Source: Vitellaria paradoxa (taxonomy: Eukaryota; Streptophyta; Magnoliopsida; Ericales; Sapotaceae). From it: a stretch of 64,000 bases of DNA. Made by a program: the position numbers and the translations under genes. The notes beneath the pieces were generated by a model that was given only the letters and a program-made list of their open reading frames with translations, made no database searches and had not been told where the DNA came from. Numbering within the stretch: position 1 is the stretch's first letter; every line of letters starts with the position of its first letter. Shown piece by piece: positions 1,052-27,389 of this stretch. The stretch is from NCBI GenBank assembly GCA_019916065.1, contig CM034236.1:13903167-13967166 (forward strand), in the 5' to 3' direction.

Positions 1052-1389
1052 TGTTGGAAATAAATTTATACAATTGTATGCAAAATTTGGAATATAAATT
1101 ACATAAAAATAAAATATGCAAAAGCGTGCTAGATTGTGATTGTTCCATCTTCAACTCTGAAAGATCAAAATATTAGGACTCGGTCTTTCTCTCTATCACA
1201 ATCAATATAATGGCTATCAATGGGAACAAGCTACCTATATATTGTGAAGAGATGGGGCCTAACAAATATATAGAGGGTGAACCCCAGTCTCACTGGGCCC
1301 TCCCATAAAAGGTTTGCCGTGGGCTTAACAACTGGCCCACACTAACCATTTATCCTTATTATCCCTATTAGGTGCACATAGGCCCAACA
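1052..1389 (-). mobile_element. Copia-type LTR with adjacent primer-binding site (minus strand)
   Basis: Read on the minus strand, this 338-bp segment starts TGTTGGGCC and ends TTTCCAACA, so it has TG...CA LTR ends. The next minus-strand bases are ATTGGTATAAGAGCC, which match the plant initiator-Met tRNA primer-binding site (TGGTATCAGAGC) with one mismatch. That marks it as the 5' LTR of a copia-type element pointing left. I found no gag or pol frame to the left, so the element is a remnant or is cut by the window edge. An imperfect inverted repeat (about 1,018-1,037 against 1,070-1,092) spans the LTR/leader junction. Confidence 0.55.
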
Positions 1390-1512
1390 ATATAAATCAC
1401 AACAAAATGGATCTTATCATGTACATTTTAATCTTTAACTTGGTTCTAACCCGTTTTTGGCAAAATAAAAATTAATTAATGTATGCTCAATATATGGAAA
1501 ATTCTGATACAT

Positions 1513-1733
1513 AACACTACAATTTTCCATCACATCATCGACAGACAAATGTAACCTAGGACTTCCACTGAACCTATTGCTATTAAGTGTCCGATCTCCA
1601 ATATCCCTAGCCTCCGAAACAGTCTCATCTTCAAGGTCATCATCTTCAAGAGGGGGGCAGCATTTGAGAAACTCAAAGAATGCCTTCTTAAAGAAGAACT
1701 CAAAGAATGCCTTCTCAAATGTGACGATGGCAT
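1513..1733 (-). pseudogene. FEX: FEX exon 1 fragment (leftmost unit of the array)
   Basis: This is a degraded copy of exon 1 of the fluoride exporter found complete at 16,940-22,117. The minus-strand start codon is at 1731-1733. The shared reading includes an acidic stretch (PLEDDDLEDE) and the segment DIGDR. Two changes break it against the better copy. A 27-bp direct duplication repeats a basic-serine motif (LRRHSLS twice). One base is missing in the C run near 1,655, so the frame from the ATG shifts before the acidic stretch. Homology stops at about 1,513, inside the exon, and unrelated AT-rich DNA follows. No other FEX exons lie to its left. It marks the edge of a third array unit. Confidence 0.8.
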
Positions 1734-2939
1734 TGTACAAAGATAGAGTCTACCATCGTGAATTTAACTTTGTATTCTACAGGGCCCGCTAGGACAGGAT
1801 TGATAACTTTGGCCAGAGGCCAAATCAAGGCATAGTTAAATCCTATCAGTGGACACTTTGCTGGTTCAAGAGTGCGTTGTAAAACAGTGGGGCCCATCCA
1901 AAGTAATTTTGCGTATATTAGATCAACGTCGAGCACTTTTATATCACGGTCGATGAAATACCACGTGTTTCATGTCAAAGTGTTCGGCAAGAAGCCACAT
2001 TCCCCAAATTCATTTTGTAAGAGCATATATAATATACATTAGTGCATCTCCCACTAATGCAACGCAAAGTTACTGGTTTGGGTCCGGATGAACTTTCTTC
2101 TCCTTAATATATGTGTAATATTGGGCCGGGTTTAGTTTACTCTTTAGTGAGGAAAATTTTAGCCAAATAAAAGTGTCACGTACTTAATGGTGGGTACTCT
2201 ATTAGTTTTAACTAATGAAAATGAGCCTGAATGGAACTTGGACATATGGTGGTCATCAAATTGCACTCTTCCCAAGAATTATTTGTGGGAGAAACAATAG
2301 AAAACGATAAGTGTGCTAGGGTTAGTGCTGCATTTCCTGATGAAGTGCGTTAGACGGAGTTGCATATTTGTATTAATCTATTCATATATTGGATATATAT
2401 ATATATATATATACACTTTTTAAGATGCAAACATTTGATCTAATTGTCAAACTCTCCTCAACATGACATAATTAATGAAGAAATTAAACAAACTCATTTG
2501 GAAAAGGGCTTATTTTGTCAGTAAACATGTCAAAAATCTAACAATATTTTGGCTTTGAGTAAAAGTAATATAAAAGGTTGGTTATCATTATCAGCTTGTG
2601 CTGACAAATGCTTCAAGCTCAATTCCAAGATTAGTTTAAGGTTGAGCTTTTCGAGCAATAGCCAATTGGCTTAGCAAGACGCTCCAAGCCTCCAATTTAT
2701 GAAATAATATAATCGGTTGTACTTTTATTACAAGAGTATTTGGGGGCTTGAAGCAATTTTTTTTTTGGCTGCAAAATATGCTTGCGTCAATAAATCAAAT
2801 TAAGAAATCTAAGCTCATTAGTCCATTACCTGACTGAACTACTCAATTGAATTAAGGCACCTACATCACCTCTTAAGAGATTCCTTAAAATAAAGTGTAA
2901 AAATGTAAAAAATCTGAAATCTAATTAACTATATGTGAA

Positions 2940-3108
2940 TTTTGAAAGTAGTTCAACTGGTAAATTTTGAATTTACTCTTTAGTGGTTCCTAGTTCAATT
3001 CTCCTCAGAGTTACTGGAGCCTTATCCGATTGTTAACTTCAGGGCTCCTAGGGATTAGTTGAGGTGCATGTAAGGTGGCCTAGATATCTGGAGTTTCCAA
3101 AAAAAAAA
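2940..3108 (+). mobile_element. tRNA-derived SINE (Au-like), copy 1
   Basis: A 5' pol III A-box-like stretch (AGTTCAACTGGTAAA) is followed by a B-box-like stretch (TAGTTCAATTCTC). The 3' body reads GGGATTAGTTGAGGTGCATG and then GGCCTAGATATCTGGAGT, ending in an A tract. This is the layout of plant Au-type SINEs. The flanks share an imperfect duplication (AACTATATGTG on the left, AACTATGT after the A tract). The second copy is at 23,330-23,543. Confidence 0.6.
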
Positions 3109-3559
3109 CTATGTCACTCGACTATATAGATTCTCTAAAAAATATCGCTTAAAAAAATAAAAGTTAATTGAATCTTTATTAAAAAAATAATAATATTTCA
3201 ATCTAATATAAAATTTACTTTTTATCAATTTATTTTCGTGACAATCATTTTACCTTAATTAATTTTAACTTGTGAGACACAATTCTAGTTAAATTTAATA
3301 GATTTAGTCAATTTAATACTTTAATTCAAATCACAGGAGACTATTCATTAACTTTTAAGTTTTAAAGTAGAAGAGGGTCGTACATTTTTGGGTTGAATCT
3401 CAAAGAGATAAACTGTAATTACCTATCTTTAATTCTATGTATTCTCCACTAAACATAACTCTACATCAACCTCTCTGATTATTATCTATAATACAAAAAT
3501 GCTACCAGGCCTCTCTATCTTTAGAGTGTCATTTTATATATGTTTTTTACTTTGAGATG

Positions 3560-3900
3560 TCAGAAGTAAAATGGAACGACAGTTGGTTCGTCGATGATCA
3601 TGTTGTCAGATTCTAACTATACATTATGGAAGCCGAGAATGGAAGATGCATTGTACTATAAGGACTTATTTGACCCCTTGAAAAATGAAGGAATCAAATA
3701 AGCCAATACAAAAGAAGACAAGAAAAAAGAAAAATAGAAAGACTCTGGGGTTAATCAGACAATGGGTCGGGTCTCAAATGTTTCAGTCCATAGCCCAGGA
3801 GATAAGCATCTATAAACTATGGAAGACACTGGAATAGACGTATCAGTAAAAAAATCATCTCAGAACAAGGCACTTTTTATGAGCAGAACATACTAATTAG
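3560..3900 (+). pseudogene. Decayed copia gag fragment, copy 1
   Basis: In translation a broken stretch resembles the N-terminal Gag domain of plant copia elements (SNYTLWKPRMED...LY, then GLIRQW, then IYKLWKTLE). It carries several stops and frameshifts. The same fragment occurs at 12,960-13,330 and 24,000-24,330. No LTR or pol accompanies it, and it runs directly into the CACTA-type terminus. Confidence 0.5.
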
Positions 3901-4095
3901 CTCCAAATGTAGTAGGTAGGATCAACTGTCGGGTGTTGGGCTTAATTATGATGATAAGTCGCATGCACTACTTCTGAGTTCTTTGCTGAACAACCGAGAA
4001 ATATTAGGTATTTTCCATACTTAGTGCCAGAAGGTAAAATGTCAAGGGCCATGGTGAATGACGCACTATTCAGCGATGTGACAAGGAGGAAATTT

Positions 4096-4690
4096 CACTA
4101 CAACAAAATAGTTTATTTTCAACATTTAAAATCATGAACAAAATTGTTAAAAAATATATTTTTCACAGTCAAAGTCACCGCCTAAAGGCGTTGAAATTAA
4201 ACCCATAAGAAAAAAAAAAAAAAGATAATCTTTCATGATCATCGGGTATTGAAAATAATATATCTATTTTCTACAATTATGGCCATTGAAAATATTATCT
4301 ATTTTCAATAATTATGACTGTCAATACTAACCTTTATTTGTAGATTTTTTTTTTCGATTATTAGTTTTTACTGTAAATTTTGTTATTTGTTCACGAGTAA
4401 GGCATTAAAAAAGATGCCTATTTTCAACTGTTACGATCGTCAATACTAATCCTTATTTGTTGACTTTTTTCATTTGATGGCCAATTTTTACTATAGATTT
4501 TTTTTTTCACGAGTAAAGCCATTAATAATATTTCTTTTTTCTATAGTAATCGTTTGAAATTTTGTTTCCTTTTTCAAAATATTATAATTATAATATAAAA
4601 AATCATCATTAATTTTAAAATATTCTAATTATAATATAAAAATTTTATTTTTTTTAACTGATCGATTGCAATATTTTACCACAAACAAGT
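4096..4690 (+). mobile_element. CACTA-type transposon terminus, copy 1
   Basis: The segment starts CACTACAACAAAATAG, the form of an En/Spm (CACTA) terminal inverted repeat. Inward it has repeated subterminal motifs of the type TTGAAAATA...TATTTTCAA with TCAATACTAACC spacers, at about 4,220-4,530. Matching copies start at 13,505 and 24,529. I found no matching opposite terminus with a 3-bp duplication, so only one end is supported. Confidence 0.5.
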
Positions 4691-6860
4691 TAATAAATTT
4701 AAATATTTCAAACTTTTGAAACAGATATTGAGCTTACAAACTTAGCTAGCTAAGAAAAAAAATGTAACAAACACACTGATATGAAATTTAAGTTAAAATT
4801 ATGTAGTCAATGTTTATATCATTTGTAAATTTATTCTAAAATAACATTCTACTGAGCAACTTTACCAAAACATTAAAAAAGAAACCAATAAAATAAAATA
4901 AAATCAAAAGAGCTCCAAACTAATCCATTATACCATTTTAAACTTGTTTCAAAATAACATTCTACTAAGTAAGTTAATCAAAAAAGACATACCAACTAAA
5001 TTATCATGACTACTAGTCTTCACTTCCCAAATTTGCAATTCATTTATCTCTACCATGCAAATAAATAAAAACATATCAACCAAACTTAAAAATACAATTA
5101 ATAAAATATATTCTAAACTTTTCATTCATACATATAATTATGACCATTTACATTGGTGCAAAAACTACATTCCAAGTTAATGGTTTTGGATATAACAAGC
5201 AAAAAACTGACTAGCTAGTATATGAATTAAAATTTGTCATGAACTTACCAAACTTGATTCATTCATAGAGGTTAAATTATTACTTTTAGTTTGAAAGATA
5301 TGTGGTCTTGACATTATCAGTTGCGCTAACATCTCTTCAAACCTTTCCGTTTTGTCTTCTAATGTCTTTTTTTCTGCTTTCTCTTCTTAAAGTTGAGCTT
5401 AAAGATCACTAAAAAGGGATTGAAAATGACGCATCACAAGCCCTTGTTACAGAAGGAAAAAGATGTGTCATACGAAACAAAAAAATGAATAGAGGAAAGT
5501 CAAAGTCGAGACAACCCATAGATCGCAGGTTTACTATCTACTACTGCAATCAGGAGAGGTGCTTAAAATGAGACTTCCCAAAATACAAGGCAACAAAAGG
5601 TAAAGGAAAGCAAAAATTCAATTGCATGAAACATTAGTGTTGTTTGGGTCCAACAAGGACGTCGCATAGCTATAGTGGCAGATTATTACTATATAAATCA
5701 AAGTAAGGAGAATTGCTTTTAGACTTGAGTTTGGTGATACAGTGAGACAAAGTAAATAGATGATGTAGTATTGCACTAACACACATAAAACAAGGGTCGG
5801 AATTGTACAGAGGGATCGTCCCAAATGCAATACGGATGTATCGGAATGGAGTCGAAGGTGTGTGGGAACGAGGTGCCTACTTGAATTTGATGACAATTAT
5901 GCAATTTAGAAAAAAGAGACAAAGCAAGTGATAACAGTGGTGCTAGATCAAATTATTTTTTTTGCACTTAAAATAATAAGTGACAGATTCATCTCTATGA
6001 AAGTGCACAAATTTTGGAAAGATAGGTTACAAGACATTGTAGTGAAGTGATATAGGAAATCCTGGATAGATAATGCGGAATTCTTAAAAGAAACTGCAGA
6101 TAGAATTTCAATTATTTGGGTGGAAGTCATGATTTTTAATAACCTCCCAAATTGAACGGAATAGCCAAAGGGATTCTTAATTTTCTTTTTCGGCTTGCAT
6201 CGTTATGGGTTTCTACCTCTTTTTATTGAATATCCCCAATTGGAGTAAAAATTGAGAGACATAATTAAGAGGGGACACGGATGTGAAAAACGAGCTGAGG
6301 GGTTTGGGATGTGTGTTTTATATTTGGGAAATGGCTGAGATAAAGAAATGTCACAGTAACTTTTCTTTGATATAAATTATAGTGGAGGATTAAGGTAGAC
6401 ATAGGTTAATTAGTCAAATTGCTCTGAAATTTATGTTGTTTCTATTCTTTTGCATCGTTTTAATTCTGAAATACCAACAATTATTAATATCGATGTTGGA
6501 TGCCCGAGAGATGCTGATAGGCAATGAGAGTGATGCTAATGATAATCTAGCACAAAGATTAAGCGAAGAATGAAAACAATAGGATATGTAAAACTAGTAA
6601 AAGAAACACTCAAATTACCAAAATTGTACGTTTGCTTTTACAATTTTACTTTATTTTCTACATATTAATGCAATAAAGTATATAAGTATATAATTTTACT
6701 TTATTTTCTACATATTAATGCAATAAAGTACGTTTGCTTTTACAATTTACCTAACTTACGCACATTGAAAGCATACATGAAGTGCTTTTTTAGGAAAATG
6801 ACGCTTAGTTTAAAAAAATTAAAAAATTAAATTAAGCAATAGATGGAATGTAGGTAATGT
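4691..6860. other. Non-coding duplicated DNA
   Basis: The sequence to about 6,690 is shared by the array units and holds no credible gene. From about 6,630 to 6,740 a short stretch around the motif TACATATTAATGCAATAAAG is tandemly doubled, and the doubling is absent from the copy at 34,380-34,431. The rest is AT-rich with nothing recognised. Confidence 0.5.
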
Positions 6861-6866
6861 TGGTTA

Positions 6867-7078
6867 AGCCCTGTTTGGAGTGCCAATAAAAACAAAAAAT
6901 TATCAAATTATGAATTGTTGGGTGCTTGGTATATTTCTTAAATAGTTGGAGAAATTTGAAAAAAAAATAGTAAAAGTTAGAGAAAGTTGCAAAAAATTGA
7001 AAATTTTTGTGTGGAAATAGTAAAAAAAAATTAAAACGAATTTAAGATTTTTAGTCAAATTTACACTCCAAACATTTA
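6867..7078. mobile_element. MITE-like inverted-repeat element
   Basis: TGTTTGGAGTG at 6872-6882 is matched by its exact inverse CACTCCAAACA at 7064-7074. About 180 bp of AT-rich non-coding DNA lies between them. TTA occurs on both outer sides (6864-6866 and 7076-7078), as for Tourist/PIF-type elements, but the outermost bases of the two arms do not pair, so the ends are uncertain. Confidence 0.45.
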
Positions 7079-7544
7079 CCAAATAATTTGGTTGGAAAAT
7101 ATGTACATGTTTGTAAGCATTAAGGGTAAGAAAGGTGGGGAAAAAAGGGGTTAATTGATTTTTCCTTGTCAAATAATTGGATGAGCTAACAATTTGAATA
7201 ATTTTGCACAAAAATAATTTTCATCAAATGCACTTTTAGGTTATTTTGGAACATAAATTTGTGGAAGGAAAGAAAAAATGAAAGAAAATAGTAAGTATAT
7301 ATATAAAATAAAATGAAAAAGTTAATTTATTTTTATTAAATTAAAAATAAGACAAAAACAAATAAAAATTTATCAATAAAATTTAATTTTTACTTGATTA
7401 AATATACAAAAATTAAAAAAATTATAAATTTTATTTTTCTTTCGTTTTTATCTTCTTTTTATAAATTCAAGCACCAAATACAATATTAACTATTTTCACC
7501 GATTAGTCATCCATCAATTCCAACAATTTCCCCGTCTTTCGTTG

Positions 7545-7816
7545 GGGTTCCAGGGGCTGCAGTGGAAGAATATATTGTAGGGGCTGCAGTAGATCAATCA
7601 ACAGTTAGGATGTAATTATATTTTAATGTGACGTGTCTTTTCATATTCTTCATTAATGATCTTCCAATCAGATTTTGTTTAACTTTTATTTTTATTTTAA
7701 ATTTAATTTTATTACATTGAATTAAGACCACTAGATTTGATGCAATTACATCATGACCGTTGATTGACTCACTGCAGCTCTTACAGTGGATTCTCCCAAT
7801 ACAGCCCCTGGAACCC
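7545..7816. mobile_element. Mutator-type MITE with long inverted repeats
   Basis: The 272-bp element begins GGGTTCCAGGGGCTGCAGTG and ends with the inverted counterpart CAGCCCCTGGAACCC. The two arms pair imperfectly over roughly 75 bp and share motifs such as GGGGCTGCAGT and GATGTAATT. A 9-bp duplication flanks it (CTTTCGTTG at 7536-7544, CCTTCGTTG at 7817-7825, one mismatch). Long arms plus a 9-bp duplication point to a non-autonomous Mutator-like element. Confidence 0.75.
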
Positions 7817-7825
7817 CCTTCGTTG

Positions 7826-8802
7826 TCATTTCCACAATTCCCTAGTAGAGATTAAAATCGATCGGGTCAGTCCATCCATCCCGACCTACCCGTTCGTAAT
7901 TTCATACAGACCACCCCCACCTCTTTTTTTTTTTTTTTTAAACTTAATGTAGATTTAGAGCGACAAAAAATAATGAAAAATATAATTTGGATAATTTTTC
8001 TCATTTAGCGCACAGCCACTAAACCATGTTTTTTAGAGATGAAAGCTAAAACTTTTTAATTTTTGTGTCAGTTTTTTTAAAAAGAAAAACCGTTTGAACT
8101 ACTTTTTTGGAACTGTCAAAATAATTTTATGTCAGAATTTATTGAAAATCATTGAAAAGTTTTTGGGATTCGTAAAAAATTTATTAAGGTTTGTAAAAAA
8201 TTTTGGGATATGTAGATATATATAAATTTATAAAAATTTCATGAAGTACAAAGAGTGCAAAATGTGTTAAGAAATTTTAAAGATTTTCCTAGATTTTTAA
8301 AGTTTTTCAGTGATTTTCATCGCACCAAACACCCCCTTAGAGTATTCGGCCCAATTTGCCTGTAACTCATCTAATTCTTAAAATTTTAGAATTAACAACA
8401 AAATAACCCCTCTAATAACCTAAGAAAACTCGAATTAATGACTATTAAAAAATAAATTTAAAGATTTACTTACCAATTGAGCAATAATATATTGGATAGT
8501 TAAATTTGATTTATTGTTTTTTGGGATAGTAATTTACACTTATCTCAAAAATTACATTTGCAACCCATACTTCAAATTGTAGATAGTGAATAAAATTTTC
8601 CTATTTTCTCCCCTCCCAATTCCCAGAATTCTCTCGTTTGTTTTTCTTTCTACCAAATCTTGTGTTGCGCAAAACTTTTAAGCTCGCAGGGGATGTTTGG
8701 ATGATAAAAAAATAATAATAAAAAAAAATTGGTATAAAAGCAAACGTGACGAATTTTGAAATATTACAAAATGTTTAAAAAAATTGATAAATTACCTCCT
8801 CT
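7826..8802. other. AT-rich spacer
   Basis: No gene was seen. The stretch contains a T-run at about 7,926-7,940 and AT-rich text. It is absent from the 16,407 junction, where block E joins block B directly. Confidence 0.5.
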
Positions 8803-10489
8803 ATATATTTCTTAAAAAATAATTTGCATTATATAATAAAAGTATTTATCACATTATAATTATATCTTGAATTAAATTTTTATATAAAAACTTTCATAGC
8901 ATTATTAAGTATGCAAAAGATATATGAAAAGAGATATGAACCGTTGTATAATTTTAATTAATAAAAAAAGAAAATGGAGTATAAAATGTTATTTGTAAAG
9001 TGCAAATAAACTCATCTAATAATTAATATATTTAATGTATAAAGAAGTATAACAAAGACAATGGTTGCTGGTTATTCATTCAAAAAATAAAAAGAGTTGC
9101 TAGAATTGGAATATAACCAAGCTGGTAATTAAGCACATGAAATACGTAGATTTCGATTTACATGAAAATTGAAGTCCCTCTAAAAATTGATGTAAGCCTG
9201 TGAAAGAAAATGTAACAAACACAATGTACTTTCATTCACTCTAAACATTAAGCAGAATCTTAAAAGTACAAATTAAGCCAAAAACTAAATAAAAAAAATA
9301 AAACAAAAATGAGAGAGGAAACAAAGAACTGGACTCAGCATCTATTAATTGTAACCCTTCACCCAAACGGGTGCAGGGTAAATCAGTGTTCCGAGGGTGA
9401 ACGACATTACAATAGCAATCAAGGCATACTTATATGCCCTTAAAGGGTGTTTGCTCTGCCTCATCGCGTGGAACTCAGCCATGAAAGTGGAAACAGTGCT
9501 TAGACAACCCATCTGCCCAAACTGCAAACCATTTGCAACAGTATCCCAGTTCTTCGTTTTCACCTGAATTCAGCAAAATAACTAGTTTCAGTAAGAATTT
9601 GTGTAGGGTACAAAAATTGGTTAAGCCAATGCAATTATGTGAATTATCAAATGCCGTATTGCTCAGAGATCACAGGATGTGTCTATAAACATATAAAATG
9701 TGGACTTTTGTTTGGAACTTTACCGCTTTCTTTAGTGTTGCGAGTGCTGCCCAGACGCAAGCTGCAGAAACATTGACTATCAGAGTCCCAAAGGGAACCC
9801 ATTCGAATGAGCCTGCTTTTCCTATGCCACGGCCGTTGAATCGGGCTAAGAACCACCTGATCCAAACACCAATTGGTCCAACAATGCAAGCCAACCACAG
9901 CTGGGCTCCGCTGCTGCCACTGTTAAACTCTTTCTTCACCAAAGCCCCCCTGATGCCCCAAAACAAGCCTAGCATCAGCAGCAGCACCATGATGGCTGCA
10001 AATTGACACCAGCGATTGTCCATCTTCCAATTGCTTCTAGAGTTAGAAGAATCATCGCAAGTATGTTTAACATTAGGGGATGTGATCTCAAGCTCTGAGC
10101 AGTCTAAACCCAAAAATAATGCAATATGCTGCAAGAAAGAAGCCTGCAATTCAAAGCTATGGTTTATAAGCCTCAAAAGAGACAGGAATGAAAGGAATAA
10201 TGGGGCAGTTCATATGCTGTACTCGTATATTCATGTAAAATCAGCACCACCTATGACAAAACCAAGCACAGCAAAAACCCATCTGCCCTGAACACTGAGG
10301 TCAAGCATTTTCTGATTCCAACCACTGAAAGTTGTAAGGCTTCCCAAGTAACCAGTTGTCAGTCCAATGGCTAAATGATCTGAAACTCTGGATATATCTC
10401 CTTTGAAAACAACGCCCCACCATCCCATTAAGAATGAGCCAACCGTGGAGAATGTTTAGTAAAATTTGTGTGAGAACAGAAGGCAAATT

Positions 10490-10650
10490 TAGAGTATATT
10501 TTGAGTGACAAAAAGTGAGATAAAATAGGATAAAGTGAGATAAGTTGTGGGTTCGTAATTTACGTAGTGAGATAAAAAGTGAATAACTTTTAAAATTTTA
10601 CAATATTTTTCACCATTTTCAGAGTTTTTTATCACCTCAAATATAGCCTT
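10490..10650. mobile_element. TTA-type MITE in FEX intron (copy in truncated unit)
   Basis: This is the counterpart of the 150-bp element at 18,093-18,242. It contains GAGTGACAAAAAGTGAGATA near the left end and an inverse-like TTTTTTATCACCTCA near the right. It was inserted before the FEX units duplicated, since both copies hold it at the same intron position. Confidence 0.55.
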
Positions 10651-11297
10651 AACTGCCAGGTGAGACTAAAACTATAAAGTGACAGGTGAAGGCAAATTGC
10701 ACTAATGCCCACCATAGAACTTACAACCAAGACCTCCGAGGATGAAACTTCTAAAAGAAAAAAACAACACAAAATGACCATCAAAATGAACTGCTAATTT
10801 CTTAACTACAAGCCTACCAGGATGGGGGCAATCACCATGAGTTGGAACACTTCCTATCATCTACTATCACAAAAACACCCAAGATGTTCTGGACTCACCC
10901 CACCCAAAAAAGAAAAAAAAATGGGGGGCAAAGAGATGTAACAACAACCAGATCCTTCACATAATCTAAGCCCCAGCACATGTACCCCCTCTAACCGTTG
11001 TGTTTATTAAACATTGAAGATCAATTCTCATACAAATTATGATATCAAAAAATTACTGAACCTCTAAGCTTGGATGGAGTGATGAACTTGATCCCTCAAC
11101 AAAATCAAGATCCTAAAATTAGATGGAGATGCCAAATCAAAAGCATGAGGTGAAATTTCATATGGACCAAGCAAAAAGTTGCCTCTCATCAGACCCTTAA
11201 AAAAACACTCAGAAATAGAACCACATTGAAGAAATGTTTGCTAATATAAATACTGCATTTTCTTTTTTTTTTTTCGTGCTAATATGCGCATGCGCGC

Positions 11298-11299
<2 letters not shown>

Positions 11300-11331
<32 letters not shown>
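11300..11331. repeat. GA microsatellite abutting a former splice donor
   Basis: About 16 GA units lie immediately beyond the exon 3 ATG at 11333-11335. On the gene's strand the intron thus starts GTCTCTCT. The same place in the complete unit (18,893-18,914) has a shorter, interrupted tract. Confidence 0.85.
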
Positions 11332-11333
<2 letters not shown>

Positions 11334-11362
11334 ATATTAAAAGGGAGATCAAGGTACATATT

Positions 11363-12876
11363 ATGATGCGCAGATGTTTCAATAAGTCCAGCAAAAATAG
11401 AAGAGTATTTTATAGAATTTATAAAAATAGACGACACCACTGGAAATGGTCTTTTTGACACAATTATAAATGTTATAAAAATTTTAGGACTTGATATTAA
11501 TGATGTACGAGGACAAGGATATGATGATGGATCTAATATGAAAAGAAAACACCAAAGAGTGTAGAAAAGACTACTTGATATATATCCTAAAGCATTTTAC
11601 ATGTCATGTGCTTGCCATAATTTGAACCTTAGACTTTGCGATATGGTGAATTCTTGTTCTAAAGCTGTGTCTTTTTTTGGAGTAGTACAACACATATATT
11701 CATTATTTTCTTCTTCTACAAAGCATTGAAAAATTTTACAAGATAACATACCAAATTTAACTGTCAAGTCATTGTCACAAACACATTAGGAAAGTCACAT
11801 TGAAAGTGTTAAAGTAATAAGATTTCAAGCTCCACAAATAAGAGATGCCTTACTACAATTAGCTAAAACTAGTGAAGATCCTAAAACAAGAAGTGAAGCT
11901 AGTTATTTAGCAACTTATGAAATTTAAAATTTTGAGTTCTTATTGGGAATGACTATTTGGTATGATATACTATTTGCTATAAACTTTGTTAGTAAATATT
12001 TACAATCAAAAGACATGCATTTTGACGTTGCAATAAATCAATTGAATGGTCTCATTTCTTTTTCTAAAAAATATAGAGAAAATGGATTTAAATCTGTAAT
12101 GATTTCCTCTAAGGAGATTGCAACTGAAATGGAAATAGAACTTATATTTCGTGAAAAACGTATAATTCATAGAAAGAAATAGTTTGATGAAAATGCCAAT
12201 GACGAGATAACCCAATCTGCTGAAGAATCTTTTAGAATAAATTATTTCTTATGTCTAATAAATCAAGCAATTTCTTCATTTGAAAATAGGTTTGAACAAT
12301 TTCAAATATACGACAATATTTTTGATTTTCTATTTAATTTTAACAAATTAAAATCATTAGACGATGATACTTTAAAGAAATATTATATTAATCTCAAGTG
12401 TAATTTGAAGCACGATACGTTTTCTGACATTAATGGTTTGGATTTATTTTTAGAACTAAAAATTTTAAAAGAAATATTACAAATAGAAGAAAATACTCCA
12501 ATAAACATATTAAATTATATAAAAAGATTAAATTCTTTTCTAAATGCATATATTGCTTATAGAATATTATTGACAATACCTGTAATAGTAGCTTCTGCAG
12601 AAAGAAGTTTTTCAAAATTGAAATTAATAAAATGTTATTTAAGATCATCCACGTCACAAGAAAGATTAAATGGATTAACTATACTATCAATTGAAAAGAA
12701 TTTGCTAGATAAACTTGAATATAAAGATTTAATTAATAATTTTGCATCTCAAAAAGAAAGAAAAATAAATTTTAATTAATATCTTTACCATAACTAAAAA
12801 TGTAGAAAGTTACAATTTTTTTTAAATGTAAATGCCTCATTTGTGGTTGTCGCTTTAGGTCTCAAAGCACCTTGAA
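11363..12876 (+). pseudogene. Degenerate hAT transposase (5'-truncated)
   Basis: Broken plus-strand frames read as a plant hAT transposase of the kind annotated as zinc-finger MYM/DUF4371 proteins. I see GYDDGSNMK, then CHNLNLRLCDMV, and at 12,405-12,779 a C-terminal dimerisation block (VASAERSFSKLKLIK followed by LRSSTSQERLNGLTILSIE). Several in-frame stops (for example near 11,571, 11,728, 11,925 and 12,181) kill it. The N-terminal zinc finger and left terminus are missing. A decayed right terminus may lie at about 12,840-12,876 (CTTTAGGTCTCAAAGCACCT then GAACCGG). The fragment starts exactly where FEX exon 3 homology ends, so it fills the gap of the missing 5' half of that FEX unit. Confidence 0.75.
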
Positions 12877-12959
12877 CCGGCTGTAATTATCTATTATACA
12901 AAATGCTACATTGCCTCTCTATATTTAGAGTATCATTTTATATATGTTTTTTACTTTGA

Positions 12960-13330
12960 GATGTGAGAAGTAAAATGGAACGACAGTGGGTTCGTCGATG
13001 ATCATGTTGTCCGATTCTAACTATACATTATGGAAGCCAAGAATGGAGGATGCATTGTACTCTAAGGAATTGTATAACCCCTTGAAAATGAAGGAATCAA
13101 ATAAGCCAATACGAAAGAAGACTAGAAAAAGGAAAAATAGAAAGACTTTGGGGTTAATCAGAAAATGGATCGGGGTCTCAAATGTTTGAAAACATAGCCC
13201 ACGAGACAAGCATCTATAAACTATGGAAGACACTGGAATAGATGTATCAGTAAAAAAAAAGAAAAAAATCAGAACAAGGCACTTGTTATGAGCAGAACAT
13301 ACTAATGAGTTCGAAATATAGTAAGTAGCA
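12960..13330 (+). pseudogene. Decayed copia gag fragment, copy 2 (best preserved)
   Basis: A 67-codon open stretch (12,986-13,189) includes SNYTLWKPRMEDALYSKELY and a later GLIRKW, matching the start of plant copia Gag. After it the frame breaks, although recognisable text continues (IYKLWKTLE). It has no LTR and no pol. Confidence 0.55.
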
Positions 13331-13504
13331 TCAACTGTCGAGTGTTGGGCTTAATTATGACGATAAGTCGCATGCACTACTTCTAAGTTATTTGCTGAAC
13401 AACTGAGAAACATTGGGTATTTTCCATACTTAGTGCCGGAAGGTAAAGTGCCAATGGCCATCGGTAATGACGCACTATTCAGCGTTGTGACAAAGAGGAA
13501 ATTT

Positions 13505-14110
13505 CACTACAACAAAATAGTTTATTTTCAACCATTAGAATCATGAAAAAAAAATTGTTAAAAAATATATTTTTCACAATTAAGCAACTACAGATAGGCG
13601 TTGAAATTAAACCCGTAAGAAGAAAAAAAAAAAAAAAAAAAAACAATCTTTCACGATCATTAGGCATTGAAAATAATATAACTGCTTTCAACGATTATAG
13701 CTATTGAAAATAGTATCTATTTTCAACAATCATGACTATTAATACTAACCTTTATTTGTTGATTTTTTTTTTTTTTTTTGATTGTTAGTTTTTACTACGA
13801 ATTATGTTATTTATTTACGAATAAAGCATTGAAAAAGATGCCTATTTTCAACTATTATAACCGTTAATACTAACTTTTATTTGCTAACTTTTTTCATTTG
13901 ACAACCAGTTTTTACTATATGTTTTGTTATTTTTTTTTTTACGAGTAAAGCCATTAATAATATTTCCTTTTTCTATTATAGTAATCGTTGAAAATTTTAT
14001 TTCATTTTTCAAAATATTATAATTATAATATAAAAAAATCATCCTTAATTTTAAAATATTTTAATTATAATATAAAAATTTTATTTTTTTGAATTGACCG
14101 ATTGCGATAT
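13505..14110 (+). mobile_element. CACTA-type transposon terminus, copy 2
   Basis: It begins CACTACAACAAAATAG, with subterminal TTGAAAATA/TATTTTCAA motifs inward to about 14,000. It is the same terminus as at 4,096 and 24,529, at the same distance from the gag remnant. Confidence 0.5.
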
Positions 14111-15040
14111 TTCACCACATACAAGTTAATAAATTTAAATATTCCAAACTTTTGAAACAAATATTATGCTTACAAACCTAGCTAGTTAAGAAAAAAAAAA
14201 TGTGACAAGTACTTTGATATGAAATTTAAGTTAAAATTACATAGTCAACGTTTGTACCATTTGTAAATTTATTCTAAAATAACATTCTACTAAGCAACTT
14301 TGCCAAAACATAAAAAACATTAATAATAATAATAATAATAAAATCAAAAGAGCTCCAAACTAGTCCATTGTACCATCTTAAACTTTTTTTAAAATAATAT
14401 TCTATTAAGTTCACCAAAAAAAACATATCAACTAAACTATCATGACTACTCGTCTTCACTTCCCAAATTTGCAATTGATTTATCTCTGCTCCACAAATAA
14501 ATAAAAACATATTAACCAAACTTAAAAATACAATTAATAAAGTATATTCTAAACGTTTCATTCATACATATAATTATGACCATTTACATTGTTGCAAAAA
14601 CTACATTCTAAGTTAATGGTTTTAGACGTAACAAACAAAAACTAACTAACACGAAATTAACTAGCTAGTATAAGAATTAAAATTTGTTCATGAACTTATC
14701 AAATTTGATTCATTCATAGAGGCCAAATTAGTACTTTCAATTTAAAAGGTATGTGGTCTTGACATTATCAGCGCTAACATCTCTTCAAACCTTTCTATTT
14801 TGTCTTCTAATGTCTTTCTTTTTGCATTCTCTTCTTGAAGTTAAGCTTAAAGATTACTAAAAAAAATTGAAAATAGCGCATCACAAGCTTTTGTTACTGA
14901 AGGAAAAAGATGTGTCATGCGAAACAAACAAATAAATAAAGGAAAGTCAAAGTCGAGACAACCCGATCACAGGTTTACTGTCTACTATTGCAATTAGGAA
15001 AGGCGCTTAAAATGAGACTCCCTAAAATACAAGGCAACAA

Positions 15041-15692
15041 CAATCCGTTGAGTTCTCTTTGTCCTCCATTTGCTTGAACTAGACTTTTCCGAAAACTTTG
15101 CACTATATGCTGGCTCACCCAGTCAAGCTCTTAGCTAAAAAAGATTCGAAGACACTCCTCAAGCTATTGAACTTCACTTTCAATAGCATTTGCGTGAGCT
15201 ATCGCTTACTCAACTTGCACAAAGCTACTGGCCTTCACTACAATTTCTTATGAAACTTGACTGACCTGTTAGGGCCTTTTAGAAATCTTGCTTTTCTACC
15301 TTCCCTATTTACTCTATGAATTAGCATCGACCTATTTTTTCAGCGTAGAAACTTGCAGGATCGAGAGCTGAATCATCGTAGAAAATGGAATCAATGCTCA
15401 TGATTTGCTTGGGAAGAATGGGTTTGTCAAAACCAGATGGAAAAGGAAGGGACCAAGCTCAAAGTCAGAGGCGAGTTGACAGATAAAAAACTTGGATGTT
15501 GTGATTCCGCTTTTTCATTAGCGAGTGAAACTTCGTGAATGAGCAGAAAGGGTGCTCCAACCGAGTGTTGAGGAAACCTTCATTAGGAGGTTTCTCTTTG
15601 AGGAATCGCCGTTCTTCGCTCAAAATTCTTCAGAAGACTTCTGCTCCGCTTTTTGCCTTTTTAATAGCTTGAGCTGAGTACAATGAGGATTA
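15041..15692. other. About 650-bp insert of organelle-like composition (possible NUMT)
   Basis: The two other copies of this block run straight from AAGGCAAC/AAGGCAAT to a stretch reading AAAAATTCAAT. Here about 650 bp intervene. The insert is visibly richer in G+C than its surroundings, lacks long A/T runs, and has the mixed CTTC/GAAG texture common in plant mitochondrial DNA. There is no inverted repeat, poly(A) tail or clear target-site duplication. I recognise no gene. Nuclear integration of mitochondrial DNA is my inference; a transposon fragment is the alternative. Confidence 0.4.
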
Positions 15693-16406
15693 GCAAAAAT
15701 TCAATCGCATGAAACATTAGTGTTGTTAGGGTCCAACAAGGACGTTGCCTAGCTATAACGGTTGGTTGTTACTATATAGATCGAAGGAGAATGCTATTAA
15801 GGAGAATTGCTTTTAGACTTGAGTTTGGTGATATAATGAGACAAAGTAAATAAATGATGTAGTATTGCACTAACGCACATAAAACAAGGGTAGGAATTGT
15901 ACAGAGGGATCATCCCAAATGTAATACGGATGTATCATAATGGAGTTGAAGGTGTGTGGGAATGAGGTGCCCACTTGAATTGTGATGATCACTGGAAGTA
16001 ACAATTATGCAGTTTAGAAAAAAGAGACAAAGCAAGTGATAACAGTGGTGGTAGATCAAATTATTTCTTTTAAACTTAAAAGAATAAGTGACAAATTCAT
16101 CTCTCTAAAAGTGTACAATTTTCGGAAAGATAGGTTACAAGACATTGTAGTGAAGTGATATCAGAAATCCTAGATAGATAATACGGATTTCTTAAAAGAA
16201 AGTGGAGATATTGGATTTCAATTATTTGGGCAGAAGGTTTGATTTTCAATAACCTCCTAAATTGAACGGGATAGCCAAAGGGATTATTATTATTATTTTT
16301 TGGCTTGCATCATTATGGGTTTCTGCCTCTTTTCATTGAACATCCTTAATTCGAGTAAAAATTGAGGGTTATAATTAAGAGGAGGCAAGGATGTGAAAAA
16401 CGAGCT

Positions 16407-18945
16407 ATATTTCTTAAAAAATAATTTTTTTCATAAAATAAAAGTATTTATCACATTGTAATTATATCTTGAATTAAATTTTTATATAAAAACTTTTATA
16501 ACATTATTAAGTATGCTAAATATACATGAAAAGAAATATGAACAGTTGTGAAAAAAACAAAATGAAGTATAAAAAACTATTTATAAAGTACAAATAAACT
16601 CACCCAATAATTAATATATTTAATGCATAAAGAAGTATAACAAACACAATGGTTGTTGGTTATTCATTCAAAAAAAAAAAAAAAAAAGAGTTACTAGAAT
16701 TGGAATATAACCAAGCTAGTAATTAAGCAAATGAAGTCCGTAGATTTCGATTTACATGAAAATTGAAGTCCCTTTAAAAATTGATTTAAGCCTGTGAAAG
16801 AAAATGTAACAAACACAATGTACATTCATTCACTCTAAACATTAAGCAGAATCTTAAAATTACAAATTAAGCCAAAAACTAGATAGAAAAAAATAAAACA
16901 AAAATGAGAGAGGAAACAAAGAACTGGACTCAGCGTGTATTAATTGTAACCCTTCACCCAGACGGGTACAGAGTAAATCAGTGTTCCGAGGGTGAAAGAC
17001 ATTACAATAGTAATCAAGGCATACTTATATGCCCTTAAAGGGTGTTTGCTCTGCCTCATCGCGTAGAACTCAGCCATGAAAGTGGAAACAGTGCTTAGAC
17101 AACCCATCAGCCCAAACTGCAAACCATTTGCAACAGTATCACAGTTCTTCGTTTTCACCTGAATTCAGCAAAATAACTTGTTTCAGTAAGAACTTGTGTA
17201 GGGTACAAAAATTGGTTAAGCCAATGCAATTATGTGAATTATCAAATGCCGTATTGCTCAGAGATCACAGGATGTGTCTATAAACATATAAAATGTGGAC
17301 TTTTGCTTGGAACTTTACCGCTTTCTTTAGTGTTGCGAGTGCTGCCGTGAGGCAAGCTGCAGAAACATTGGCTATCAGAGTCCCAAAGGGAACCCATTCG
17401 AATGAGCCTGCTTTTCCTATGCCACGGCCGTTGAGTCGGGCTAAGAACCACCTGATCCAAACACCAATTGGTCCAACAATGCAAGCCAACCACAACTGGG
17501 CTCCGCTGCTGCCACTGTGAAACTCTTTCTTCACCAAAGCCCCACTGATGCCCCAAAACAAGCCCAGCATCAACAGCAGCACCATGATAACTGTAAATTG
17601 ACACCAGCGATTGTCCATCTTCCAATTGCTTCTAGAGCTAGAAGAATCATCTAATGCAAGTATGTTTAACATTAGGGGATGTGATCTCAAGCTCTGAGCA
17701 GTCTCAACCCCAAAAATAATGGAATATGCTGCAAGAAACAGACCTGCAATTCAAAGCTATTGTTTATAAGCCTCAAAAAAGACAAGAATGACAGGAATAA
17801 TAGGGCCAGTTCATATGCTGTACTCATAAATTCATGTAAAATCAACACTACCTATGACAAAACCAAGCACAGCAAAAACCCATCTGCCTTGAACACTGAG
17901 GTCAAGCATTTTCTGATTCCAACCACTGAAAGTTGTAAGGCTTCCCAAGTAACCAGTTGTCAGTCCAATGGCTAAATGATCTGAAACTCTGGATATATCT
18001 CCTTTGAAAACAACGCTCCACCATCCCATTAAGAATGAGCCAACCTTGCAGGATGTTTAGTAAATTTTGTGTGAGAATAGAAGGCAAATTTAGGGTGTGT
18101 ATGGAGTGACAAAAAATGAGTTAAAATTAGATAAAGTGAAATAAATTGTGGGTTCATAATTTATGTAATGAGATAAAAAGTAAATAATTTTTAGAGTTTT
18201 TTAGTATTATTCACTATTTTTAGAATTTTTTGTCACCCCAAATTAAGCCGTAAGTGCCAGGTGAAACTAAAACTATAAAGTGACAAGTGAAGGCAAATTG
18301 CACTAATGCCCACCACACAACTTACAACCAAGACCTCCAAGGATGAAACTTCCAGAAGAAAAACCAACACAAAATGACCATCAAAATAAGCTACTAATTT
18401 CTTAACTGCAAGCCTACCAGGATGGGGCCAATCACCATGAGTTGGAACACTTCCTATCATCTGCTACCACAAAAACACCTAAGATGTTCTGGAACCCCCC
18501 CTCGCCAAAAAAAAAAAAAAACAGGCAAAGAGATGTAACAATAACCAGATCCTTCACATAATCTAAGCCCCAGCACTTGTACCCCCTCTAACCATTGTAT
18601 TTATTAAACTTTGAAGATCATTTCTCATATAAATTATGATATCAAAAAATTACTGAACCTCTAAGCTCAGATGGAGTGATGAACCTAATCCCTCAACAAA
18701 ATCAAGATCCTAAAATTAGATGGAGGTGCAAAATCCAAAGCATGAGGTGACATTTCATAAGGACTAAGCAAAAAGTTGCCTCTCATCAGACCCTTAAAAA
18801 AACACTTAGAAATGGAACCACATTGAAGAAATGTTTGTTAATATAAATACTGTATTTTCTTTTTCTCCGTGCTCAGATACGCACGCACGCGTGAGAGAGA
18901 GGGAGAGAGAGAGACCATATTAGAAGGAAGATCAAGGTACATATA
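16407..18945. repeat. Segmental duplication, block B copy 2
   Basis: This is the partner of 8,803-11,362. It carries exons 6-4 and part of exon 3 of the complete FEX gene. Differences from copy 1 are mostly single bases and small indels. Confidence 0.85.
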
Positions 18946-21900
18946 ATATTGATCCCTCGTGGCATCAACTACTCCGGGGCCAAACAATTTTTGCAGTAAA
19001 TACCTTGTTAAAACCTACAAACATCAAATAAAAAGGTCAAAATTTTCCACACTAATGCTACCTTAGCCTCCATTCCGTACTTCAGAGAGAGTATTTGATA
19101 TAATATAATTCTGTGAGGGCAGTCTCCATCCACTACAATATAACAACAAAAGCAGTAGGAATAACAATGACAGCAGCAACAATAAATTCAAAATAGGATA
19201 GGCCAGTAGTACCTGTTTGTTGATTATTATAATTTTCCCATACCAACAAATAAAAATGAGATCCAAATAGTTAAATCAGTGCATAAGATCTTAGATAATT
19301 GTGTAGGAAGATTCAGAAATTTAATAAGAAACATCAAAAGCTAGTAAAAAATAACTTCAAAACATTTATGCAAAATGGAATGTGGATTGAATTTTCATCA
19401 TTTGTTGGAAAGTAGGAGGAAGTGACATATTATTTTATGTTGGCTATCAACCTTACCGCAATCCCCCTTTGTCCAAACTTGGGACCGACTGTGTTAAAAT
19501 ATATTAAGCACGTAGAGGCAAATTTAATGCGTGCCGAGCTAATAATTATAATTAAAATAACATCAATTTTTCTTCACCTTTCTCGGCTGCATGGCCAACC
19601 AAACTAAGGGAGGATAACCTTTTGTATCCTACCTTCCCTTAAGCTTAATTTTCTATTCCTTAGCCTAAATGCAGCATTAACCTCATTAAACACGATGAAA
19701 TATAGAGTATTGACCAACAGTGGAGTTACGAAGGGATGAGTGGGGGCACGTATCCACATTGATTGCAAAATCTTCTCATAGGATACAATTATTTTATTAA
19801 TTTTCATACATTATAAGTTTAACCCCACTGAAATTCAAAATTCATCCCTAATCAAGTGAAAAGTTTCTCTCTTCCATGTGAATTTATCTCGCAACTTAGT
19901 ACTCCACTTCTTTTTTTACCTATATATATATATCTCTTTAAACCCAGCCAAGCCACTTCAACTTTTCATTTTTATCACTCTCCCTCTCTTCTCATAAGGG
20001 ATCTCTCAACTTTTCATCATTCCTTATTTTTTTCTCTCACTAATAAACCTGGCAGAGCCCATCTTCCTCTTACCATTTCTTTCTTTATTCTCAATGCTTC
20101 TCTCTTCCTTTTTAAAGCCTAGTGGGCAGATGCTCATCTTTCAAATAAGATCTTGAATTTCTCTCTTCAATTTACAACAAAACCCAATGAGCAGAATATC
20201 GAGATAAAGGCCTAGACAACTTAGTTGAATGCAAATGCTTGGGTGTGAAAAGCTTGACCAAGGATGTAGGAGGCCATGAGGGCAACTCTGGAGGAGCAAC
20301 TGTAGTACACCATTATTGGCAATAGCACCCAAATATAATTTTGAAATATGACGATATGAGTTTATGATGCAAAGATACAAAAAGGAGAAAAGTTTTATAC
20401 TATCTACAACAATCTAATGAACATACCAGATATTATTTGAACACGCACACCCACACAAAACAAACAAACGAACAAACTCTAACATTATAATTTTAAAATA
20501 CTGAAAACTACGAAACAATAATACTCAAGTCTGACTTCTAAAATAGTACAGGCATTTCTTAATTGTAACCACTATACATGCCCATAATGGCTTATCAAAC
20601 TGTATACTGATGAGACCGGAGATATTATCAGAAGAGATGACACTTTTTGGGTTCAAACCTTCATATCTTCATATAAACAATGCTTTTAAAGATATTTTTG
20701 TTATTTATGCTTACATTATGTTCTACATATTTAAGAAGACAGTTATTATCTCATTTCAACTTCTTTATTCAAGGATTCAAGAAACCATCTTCCATATTGC
20801 TTGGCAACTAAAATATGAACTGCATATTTAATTCATAAAGCTACTCACATCTTCCACAACATTTGCCTAGCTTAACAATTTTTAATCAGATTTGGGCGAG
20901 GAAGGAAAAAAATGAGGTTTAATGGGTTTGAAATTAAATTATATAAAAATATCCGAGAGCTTTGTAGTATAGTTAGATTAGGAAACTAGAAGAGAAGATA
21001 AACTAGAGAGAGGAGAATTAGTTTATTCAGATACCCATACAGCAACATTCCTTACTATGAAAGATTACAAATAACTACTTCTACGTTGTTATTTCAAATA
21101 TATTAATCAAATATACTAAAACTCTCAAATTCGAGTCCACATCTGAACTACCAAATCAAATTTTTATTTTTATTTTTCTCCTTCAATAATTAGTGTCAAA
21201 TCTTCTCATTCAAATCCATGAATATAAACAAAACCCAAAGATCAGATGTAGAAATAATATTTACATGTGTATTGCGTCAATGGTAGTATCACATATTTCA
21301 CTAAGAGAATGTAAAGGGTACAATACACATACAACTTAATTATTTTGATAATTGTTTGGATTTAATAATGCACATTTACAATCAAAACAATTATTATCAA
21401 TTGCTATCTGGTGGAAAATTAAAATTATGGGTGAAGAAAAAATAAGTAAAGGTTTGCATGATACTCAAGGATTTGAAAAATGAAAAAGAAAGTAACAAGT
21501 AAAAGTTTTGCCATGTTACCCCAAGAATTCCAAAGACAGCCAGATGGATTAGGCATGAAATGTAACCCAATAACCATGGTAGCTCTTTCTTGTTCTCCTG
21601 CAAAATGGAAACAAAAAAAGACTCATAATCACCAAGATGGATCACCCACGCATAATTGCTTATAGAATAAATAAATTTATACATTATATGAATAAAGTTG
21701 AGAACAAAAGTCGTCTCTGTAAGTCTACAATAAAACTATTAAAAAGGAAAAGGGATCGAAAAAACTCACTTGCTTTTTGTTATCAGAATCTAAGGTCACA
21801 CTGGTGGAAGGAAGGGGGACATTTTCCAGTGTTGATGGCAAAACAGGAGTGGTAGTTGTTTCTGCCATGGGATCTCGAGACCAATATTCGTATGACTGTG

Positions 21901-22117
21901 AAGCATCCTCCTAAGTGGGCATAACCCTACAATTTTCCATCACATCATCGATAGACAAATGTAACCTACGACTTTCGCTGAACCTATTGCTATTAAGTGC
22001 CCGATCTCCAATATCCCCAGCCTCTGAAACAATCTCATCTTCAAGGTCATCATCTTCAAGAGGGGGGACAACATTTGAGAAACTCAAAGAATGCCTTCTC
22101 AAATGTAACGATGGCAT
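16940..22117 (-). CDS. FEX: Fluoride exporter FEX (double CrcB-domain channel), six exons, in-frame TAG in exon 1
   Basis: Eukaryotic FEX proteins are plasma-membrane fluoride channels that let F- leave the cell; each is two fused antiparallel CrcB/Fluc domains. Exons on the minus strand: 22117-21770, 21597-21520, 19014-18916, 18044-17852, 17743-17319, 17158-16940. All introns are GT-AG and all phases agree, giving 453 codons, close to the length I expect for plant FEX. Residues 1-116 are a charged, serine-rich N-terminus. Domain I follows (HLAVFGILG about 131-142, pore Asn174 in SNMVGS, TTFS at 212-215), then a linker helix (about 290-310) and domain II (Asn365 in GTLIANVS, STVSTF 403-408, C-terminus VKGYN). 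Codon 69 is TAG (21911-21913) between MPT and EDASQ. Either it is a nonsense mutation, an unseen intron removes it, or translation starts at the ATG at 21868 (about 370 residues, both domains intact). The exon 3 donor is ATG|GTCTCT next to a GA tract. Confidence 0.88.
18093..18242. mobile_element. TTA-flanked MITE in FEX intron 3
   Basis: The 150-bp element runs from GGGTGTGTATGGAGTGAC to GTCACCCCAAA, with TTA on both sides (18090-18092, 18243-18245). The arms pair over GTGACAAAAAAT. The interior (GATAAAGTGAAATAA, then TAATGAGATAAAAAGT) recurs at 10,490-10,650, at 37,376-37,513 (inverted) and at about 42,751-42,890 (inverted). It is non-coding. TTA duplications suggest a Tourist/PIF-Harbinger type. 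Confidence 0.65.
19017..21519. other. Long FEX intron 2
   Basis: This is the 2.5-kb intron between exons 2 and 3, with donor GGG|GTAACA and acceptor TTTGTAG|GTT. It contains the MITE at 19,716-19,850 and AT-rich text. The short open frames on both strands show no recognisable domain. This part is unique to the complete unit. Confidence 0.75.
19716..19850. mobile_element. Possible hAT-type MITE in FEX intron 2
   Basis: CAGTGGAGTTACGAAGGGAT at the left and ATTCATCCCTA at the right resemble the ends of the better supported 144-bp hAT MITE at 42,984-43,127 (GGGACGAGTGGGGG and similar interior). No clear 8-bp duplication is seen here, so the ends are approximate. Confidence 0.35.
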
Positions 22118-22480
22118 TGTACGGAGATGGAGAGTTCACCACTGTGAATTCGACTTCGGATTCTACAGGGCTAGCTCGAACGGGAATGATAACTCTGCTC
22201 AGAGGCCAAACTGGGGCAGAGTTAAATCCTATCAGTAGGCACTCTGCTAGTTCAAGGGTGCGCTATAAAATAGTGGGGTGCATCCAAAGCGATTTCAAGT
22301 ATATTAGACTAACACCAAGCACTTTTATACCACGCTCAGCGAAATGCCACGTGTCCCATGTCAAAATACTCTATAAGGAGCCACATGCCCCAAATCCATT
22401 TTATAACAACATATATAATATACATTAGTGCAGCCCCCACTAATGCAACACAAGGTTACTGATGATGTGGTTTCGTATCA
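22118..22480 (-). promoter_or_regulatory. FEX 5' flank with ACGTG core
   Basis: This is the region upstream of the FEX start codon. It is conserved in the partner copy at about 1,734-2,060, including a GCCACGTGTCCCATGTC stretch (near 22,347) with a G-box/ABRE core CACGTG; the partner reads ACCACGTGTTTCATGTC. No unambiguous TATA box could be placed. A regulatory role is inference from the motif and the shared flank. Confidence 0.35.
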
Positions 22481-23329
22481 GCTTTCTTCTCCTTATTATA
22501 TATGTATTATTGGGCCAGGTTTAATTTACTCTTAAGTGAGGAATATTTTAGCAAAAAAAATGTGTCACGTACTTAATGGTGGGTATTCCATTAGTTTTAA
22601 CTAATGAAAACGAGCATGAATGGAATTTGGATATATGGTGGTCATCAAATTGCTTTCTTCCCAAGAATTATTTGTGGGAGAAACAATAAAAAATCATAAT
22701 CGTGCTACGGTTAGTGCTGCATTTCCTGATGAAGGGCGTTAGACAGAGTTGCATATTTGTATTAATCTATTCTTATATTATATATATATATATATATACT
22801 TTTTAAGATGCAAACGTTTGATCTAATTGTCAAACTCTCCTTAACATGACATAACTAATGAAGAAATTAAACAAACTCATTTGGAAAAGGGCTTATTTTG
22901 TCAGTAAACATGTTAAAATTTTAACAATATTTTGGCTTTGACTAAAATTAACATAAAAGGCTGGTCATCATAATCAGCTTGTGCTGACAAATGCTTCAAG
23001 CTCAATTCCAAGATTAATTTAAGGTTGAGCTCTTCGAGCAATACCTAATTGGCTTAGCAAGACGCCCCAAGCCTCCAATTTATGAAATAATATGATCGGC
23101 TGTACTTTTATTACAAGAGTATTTGGGGGCTTGAAGCAAGTGTTTTTTTTTTTTTTTGGTTGCAGAATATGCATGCGTCAATAAATCAAATTAAGAAATC
23201 TAAGCTCATTAGCCCATTACCTGACTGAACTACTCAATTGAATTAAGGCACCTACATCACCTCTTAAGAGATTCATTAAAATAAAGTGTAAAAATGTAAA
23301 AAAATCCAAAATCTAATTAACCATATGTA

Positions 23330-24330: not shown

Positions 24331-24528
24331 TTCCAAATGTAGTAAGTAGCATCAACTGCCGAGTGTTGGGCTTAATTATGTCGACAAGTCGCATGCACCA
24401 CTTCTGAGTTCTTTGCTGAACAACCGAGAAACATTAGGTATTTTCCATATTTAGTGCCAGAAGGTAAAGTGTCAATGGCCATGGGGAATGACGCACTATT
24501 CAGTGTTGTGACAGCAAAGAGGAAATTT

Positions 24529-27386: not shown

Positions 27387-27389
27387 AAG

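Follow-up and report, generated by a model that had tools for sequence, protein, structure and literature searches.

Layout of the FEX copies

The window analysed here, 64,000 nucleotides of contig C4 (C4:13903167-13967166) in a 667-Mb genome of 71 contigs, contains copies of the plant fluoride exporter gene FEX, which encodes a CrcB-like channel. Together with 60 kb to the left of the window (negative coordinates below), these copies form collinear, head-to-tail repeats on one chromosome that span more than 100 kb. From left to right the repeats were termed units 0, I, II and III. All FEX exons lie on the minus strand, and units I, II and III each combine a FEX segment with an upstream flank, F. 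In self-BLAST of the window, collinear same-strand blocks were well above chance expectation. Positions 1510-6540 matched 21920-27002 (85.7% over 5171) and 8804-11364 matched 16406-18947 (91.5%), while 12886-15042 and 15692-16406 were common to both other units. The initial annotation had described a decayed three-unit tandem FEX array, to be recognised by such blocks, and had correctly located FEX exons of one orientation in the window; beyond this description, the array exceeds 100 kb, includes a fourth copy of the flank and has an intact relative on contig C7. Coordinates are collected in Table 1.

Exons 4-6 were found at four places in the window's genome, namely units I, II and III and the C7 gene. 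A genome search with PF02537 gave 10 exon matches: three in unit III, three in unit II, three on C7 and one outside the window, 24 kb to its left. Window positions 16406-18100, which cover exons 4-6 of unit III and its 3' flank, served as query in a DNA search; 40 of 399 first-look candidates were scored, and exon matches were recovered only in III, II, C7 and I. The remaining matches covered just the final ~220 bases of this query, which belong to a dispersed repeat located in the 3' flank beside the II/III junction. A whole-genome search with 3.2 kb of F gave long matches only on C4, and the 70 kb of C7 used for comparison held no counterpart of F apart from short repeats. No FEX exon was found in unit 0, the fourth flank copy left of unit I; of the further exons that might lie in the flanking assembly, those recovered belonged to unit I.

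The intact gene on C7

The C7 gene has six exons and a 491-aa frame with no internal stop, and its exon 1 was matched by tblastn from residue 4 of the Actinidia protein P0001. PF02537 matched it with 116 bits in two stretches, that is, two CRCB domains in one open frame. Its motifs PFGTLIAN, STVSTFMAE and YALIT agree with PxGTxxxN, ooXooF with a following E, and YxxxS/T, as given for FEX in PMC5417652. Matches among PDB sequences were confined to bacterial CrcB/Fluc chains (3 sequences, weak). The C7 gene most likely encodes a working fluoride exporter, although full activity can only be presumed because residue 199 is F where 130 of 130 aligned homologues carry T.

Homology between C4 and C7 starts inside C7 exon 1, at C7 39315 for unit III and 39342 for unit I, near codons 43 and 34, respectively; internal repeats blur the exact point. 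From there it extends, with gaps, to C7 22431, far beyond the gene. Introns 2-5 could be aligned between C7 and the array copies, and the array is therefore not derived from a retrocopy (processed pseudogene).

Anatomy of the array units

Unit I is a whole FEX gene that reaches 30 kb left of the window and carries insertions, frameshifts and, when read in the C7 register, eight in-frame stops. It had been taken to consist of exon 1 only. In fact, a ~7-kb long terminal repeat (LTR) element splits that exon (LTR pair 1052-1505 and -5566..-5112, 86% identity, Kimura two-parameter distance 0.150), and the other exons lie left of the window. Unit II has lost exons 1 and 2 and most of exon 3, and it bears two frameshifts, one stop and the substitution T469A. 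Unit I has lost the conserved residues N212 and E449 (N212D, E449K). Neither unit retains an open frame with the conserved channel residues.

Unit III was initially annotated as a complete gene; its homology to C7, however, begins within exon 1, the native start is missing and a TAG at codon 69 interrupts the frame. The first 14 nt of its exon 1 (ATGCCATCGTTACA) are unmatched at C7 and adjoin F; the remainder of the exon corresponds to FEX, starting at about C7 codon 43. Exons 2-6 are free of frameshift and stop, the introns have GT and AG at their ends, and 7 of 7 examined FEX motif sites equal C7. The frame from the ATG at 21868 encodes 370 aa with two CRCB stretches (117 bits).

Units I and III, the two array copies in which a 5' end survives, have the truncated exon 1 joined to F, with an in-frame ATG (ATGCCATCG) where the two meet. 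Both lack the native N-terminus and upstream region and are fused to unrelated flank. TATAAAA and ACGTG lie 212 nt and 235 nt before the junction ATG in unit III, and 210 and 233 nt before it in unit I; these words may act as a promoter. The usual intron donor has a GTAAGT-like form. At intron 3 all three array copies read ATG/GTCTCT (18910-18916 in unit III) where C7 has ATG/GTTGGT, a 4-base difference that could weaken splicing. The II/III junction is without the flank kept at the I/II junction, and the junctions differ because their ends were trimmed. A dispersed repeat at 16406-16630, in the 3' flank of unit III at the II/III junction, recurs on many contigs at 72-85% identity and could have helped the deletion there.

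Phylogenetic placement

In a tree of 28 rows, C7 and the array formed one clade (100/100), within which the array was itself a clade (98/93). Camellia, Actinidia, Sarracenia and Rhododendron grouped together (97/91) without C7 and the array; deeper forks were weak. The best protein matches came from Actinidia, Davidia, Nyssa, Sarracenia, Diospyros and others, members of Ericales and Cornales. The plant may belong to Ericales; a place in Theaceae finds no support. A tea-like fluoride accumulator had been suggested as a candidate source, a proposal at odds with the separate clade and with the best identity to a named Camellia protein (71% across 79% of the query for unit III and 73% across 73% for C7). 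Camellia, tea or close kin as the species is rejected by the tree.

Constraint on the channel-coding exons

A branch codon model was fitted to exons 2-6 (337 codons) and to all exons (491 codons). For exons 2-6, omega was 0.26 on the unit III branch (p 0.017 vs 1), 0.54 for C7 plus stem (p 0.09), 0.85 for unit I (p 0.59) and 1.8 for unit II (p 0.27). The corresponding all-exon values were 0.51 (p 0.10), 0.53 (p 0.047), 0.71 (p 0.19) and 1.8 (p 0.27). Branch-specific substitutions in exons 4-6 versus introns pointed the same way, and more strongly, at 9/830 vs 161/3590 for unit III (p 3e-7), 16/830 vs 30/1123 for II (p 0.30) and 48/830 vs 171/3430 for I (p 0.34). Near-invariant core columns (the same residue in >=97% of homologues, n >=100) were broken at 3/112 in C7, 4/112 in unit III, 7/99 in II and 11/111 in I, breaks 340 and 460 being common to all copies. 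For exons 2-6 of unit III the count was 6 non-synonymous and 9 synonymous changes (binomial p 0.005). Codon 199, among the six, encodes threonine in both array copies and differs between them at the third position, so that the change is preferably taken as synonymous. Of the 19 unit III changes in exon 1, 14 were non-synonymous, and this exon is variable among other plants too. Seven 'complex' sites were excluded from the initial branch counts, from which the exon 1 figures come, and were recounted for III only.

Gene conversion from C7 could also keep exon change low in unit III. Over ~260 synonymous sites of exons 2-6 (0.744 non-synonymous fraction), unit III has 9-10 synonymous changes of its own, near the intron rate of 161/3590, and just one site in exons 4-6 is common to C7 and III alone. 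Conversion is therefore rejected as the main cause, short tracts being possible. Units I and II evolve neutrally, with no constraint on their own branches. For unit III, the substitution patterns support, with caveats, constraint during part of its life and are no proof of present function.

Divergence and relative age

Intron 2 differed at 224/2479 positions between C7 and III, 226/2473 between C7 and I and 256/2489 between I and III, and all six pairwise distances in intron 3 were 0.103-0.133. Informative sites were split in a near-star pattern, 17 for II+III, 13 for C7+II and 11 for C7+III; dispersal and tandem growth were therefore close in time. Comparisons within F gave distances of 0.096-0.119 between units I, II and III, 0.12-0.14 when these were compared with unit 0, and 0.21-0.22 in a single block.

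An assembly artefact, in which two haplotypes (a possibility raised in the initial annotation) or collapsed repeats would mimic an array, finds no support in the data. Introns 2 and 3 diverge by 9-13% between copies, each unit has different insertions, one of them with a clean target duplication (the LTR element at 27003-34277) and empty sites in units I and 0, and all units share one 59.65-Mb contig, of which the 144 kb counted contained no N. These observations largely answer that worry and make such an artefact highly improbable.

Probable origin as a dispersed, truncated copy, and decay

A history that fits these data well, and that we hold with considerable confidence, is a truncated dispersed duplicate of the C7 gene that was tandemly amplified on C4 and then decayed. 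A DNA segment of ~17 kb, from inside exon 1 to exon 6 with introns and ~11 kb of 3' flank, would have been copied from C7 to C4 beside F. The copy would have come without the gene's own upstream region and its first codons, and the in-frame ATG at the F junction would have made it a chimeric gene, possibly with a promoter captured from F. Segment and F would then have been duplicated in tandem to give at least three gene units. Unit I would later have been broken by insertions, stops and frameshifts, and unit II would have lost its 5' exons. In unit III, purifying selection would have preserved the channel-coding exons 2-6 during part of the unit's history, and the variable N-terminal region now contains a stop.

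Several points weigh against parts of this history. Unit 0 consists of F without FEX, and the first duplication step is not settled by the array. The ancestral locus is placed on C7 by its completeness, not by synteny with other plants. Intron 4 differs between C7 and III at just 4/108 positions and intron 5 between II and III at just 3/160, and local homogenisation or short conversion tracts are therefore possible. The LTR pair distances of 0.150 and 0.202 exceed the inter-unit distances of 0.096-0.119, though insertions should be younger; clocks therefore differ here, and we presume faster change in methylated elements to be the likely reason. As for constraint, a single omega for all branches was not rejected (p 0.060 for exons 2-6, 0.19 for all exons), and the exon 2-6 subset was emphasised after the counts had been seen, with exon 1 changing freely and p 0.10 over all exons. 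Unit III has furthermore altered two near-invariant residues, G223S and M410T, position 223 being G in 131 of 131 aligned homologues.

These last two changes also bear on whether, after the same history, unit III still works, with translation from the ATG at 21868 yielding a FEX with a shortened N-terminus and captured F sequence driving the gene. That ATG is a change specific to unit III directly past the stop, the intact 370-aa frame behind it holds both CRCB stretches, TATA and G-box-like words lie upstream, non-synonymous and exon change is reduced on this branch, and the Camellia sinensis protein model P0117 (357 aa) likewise starts late. Set against this are an upstream ATG that opens a 68-codon frame first, the unusual intron 3 donor and the altered G223 and M410. 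On balance, a unit III that is still working seems rather unlikely. That it is a living second FEX, without native N-terminal region or promoter, which outlived its stop through a new start just beyond it, is somewhat more doubtful still.

Amplification had originally been linked, as a possibility, to selection for fluoride tolerance followed by decay; in that reading, selection kept the copies and was relaxed later. The array does hold three gene units of a fluoride exporter, one of them constrained, and FEX overexpression is reported to increase plant tolerance (PMC10859346). However, what was amplified is a 5'-truncated founder lacking the native upstream region, no constraint was seen on the branches leading to units I and II (omega 0.85 and 1.8), and the plant's FEX does not group with tea. 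Some constraint on unit III stands and nothing shows selection for fluoride tolerance, which we consider an improbable cause. The FEX array is thus no evidence of fluoride adaptation: a truncated copy was dispersed, then amplified, and has for the most part been lost.

Comparison with known systems

Like plant FEX, a CrcB/Fluc-like channel with PF02537 twice, C7 and exons 2-6 of unit III have two CRCB stretches, PxGTxxxN, STxSTFxxE and YxxxT, and their identity to the Actinidia eriantha protein is 74% and 73%, respectively. Unlike plant FEX, no array copy has the native N-terminus or its upstream region, units I and II are broken, and the TAG interrupts III. Duplicated (unprocessed) pseudogene arrays, and chimeric genes formed by partial duplication, keep introns, have a partial 5' end and foreign upstream sequence, and decay through stops and transposable elements. 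The array resembles unprocessed pseudogene arrays in its introns, 5' truncation, foreign upstream sequence and decay, and differs in the residual constraint on one unit. The finding is genuine but of a common type: a gene was duplicated in part to a dispersed site, multiplied in tandem and decayed, and one of the copies is of some interest. The four channel copies are close to one another in age; one is intact, one is truncated yet constrained, and two could decay freely. They amount to a natural experiment that tests whether plant FEX needs its long, variable N-terminal region.

PMC9317437 describes one cloned tea gene, CsFEX, and no discussion of FEX arrays was found in the portions seen of PMC10859346, PMC9317437 and PMC5417652. 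Among the papers listed in literature searches, none was a relevant report on FEX arrays, duplicates or pseudogenes in plants. Tandem FEX genes are likely in other plants: in Rubus argutus, M0R45_001072 and M0R45_001076 share a listed contig of 452,580 bases, and their neighbouring gene numbers suggest local FEX duplication. The Rubus entries are 463-aa predicted proteins, whereas none of the array copies described above can be read without a break from its first ATG.

Table 1. Positions of FEX segments, exons, flanks and insertions on contig C4 (window numbering; negative values lie left of the window)
Feature	Position	Strand	Remarks
Unit 0 flank F	-68813 to about -45280		no FEX exon found
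Unit I FEX segment	-42358 to 1719	minus	
Unit I exon 6	-30232 to -30449		
Unit I exon 5	-24156		
Unit I exon 4	-23854		
Unit I exon 3	-22866		
Unit I exon 2	-20291		
Unit I exon 1, remainder	-5567		beyond LTR-element insertion
LTR element, part	1..1509	minus	inserted in unit I exon 1
Unit I exon 1, 5' part, truncated	1510..1733	minus	one-base frameshift
Unit I upstream flank F	1734..6686	minus	not present on C7
Unit II FEX segment with 3' flank	6752-11364	minus	
Unit II 3' flank, C7-derived	6752..8803	minus	with gaps; missing at II/III junction
Unit II FEX stretch	8804..11364	minus	exon 3 end to exon 6
Unit II exon 6	9563-9345	minus	
Unit II exon 5	10143-9724	minus	1-nt and 4-nt deletions
Unit II exon 4	10443-10251	minus	
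Unit II exon 3, last 32 nt	11364-11333	minus	
Replacement sequence	11365..12885	plus	in place of unit II exons 1, 2, most of 3 and proximal flank
hAT transposase remnant	12405-12776		PF05699; inside the 1.5-kb stretch 11365..12885
Unit II upstream flank F	12886..16406	minus	insertion ~15043-15691; abrupt end at II/III junction 16406
Unit III FEX segment	16406-22103	minus	
Unit III 3' flank, C7-derived	16406..16939	minus	cut at junction
Unit III exon 6	16940..17158	minus	
Unit III exon 5	17319..17743	minus	
Unit III exon 4	17852..18044	minus	
Unit III exon 3	18916..19014	minus	
Unit III exon 2	21520..21597	minus	
Unit III exon 1	21770..22117	minus	chimeric
Unit III-specific ATG	21866..21868	minus	ATT in C7 and unit I; 15 codons past TAG
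Unit III in-frame TAG	21911-21913	minus	codon 69 of local frame; CAG in C7, CAA in unit I
Unit III upstream flank F, proximal	22104..27002	minus	
Decayed LTR retrotransposon and further insert	27003..34277		in F of unit III; CTAAT target duplication
Unit III flank F, remainder	34278..42650	minus	homologous with gaps to unit 0 (-64348 to -45280)

Other features of the region

An open frame of 136 aa at 42018-42428, within 41845-42650 (minus), was duplicated with F and had no Pfam match; its unit 0 copy (-46081..-45280 on C4) shifts frame midway. It is possibly a plant gene fragment. A long glycine-rich repeat protein with no Pfam match is encoded at 62470-63507 (plus), with internal repeats in self-BLAST, and 53053-54973 comprises two direct repeats of ~970 bases, 90% identical and head to tail by the same comparison. 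Satellite-like tandem repeats with a period of ~146 bases occur on C4 at -54344 to -52462, in the unit 0 flank, and at 65373-67359, just right of the window, and are ~90% alike between both sites.

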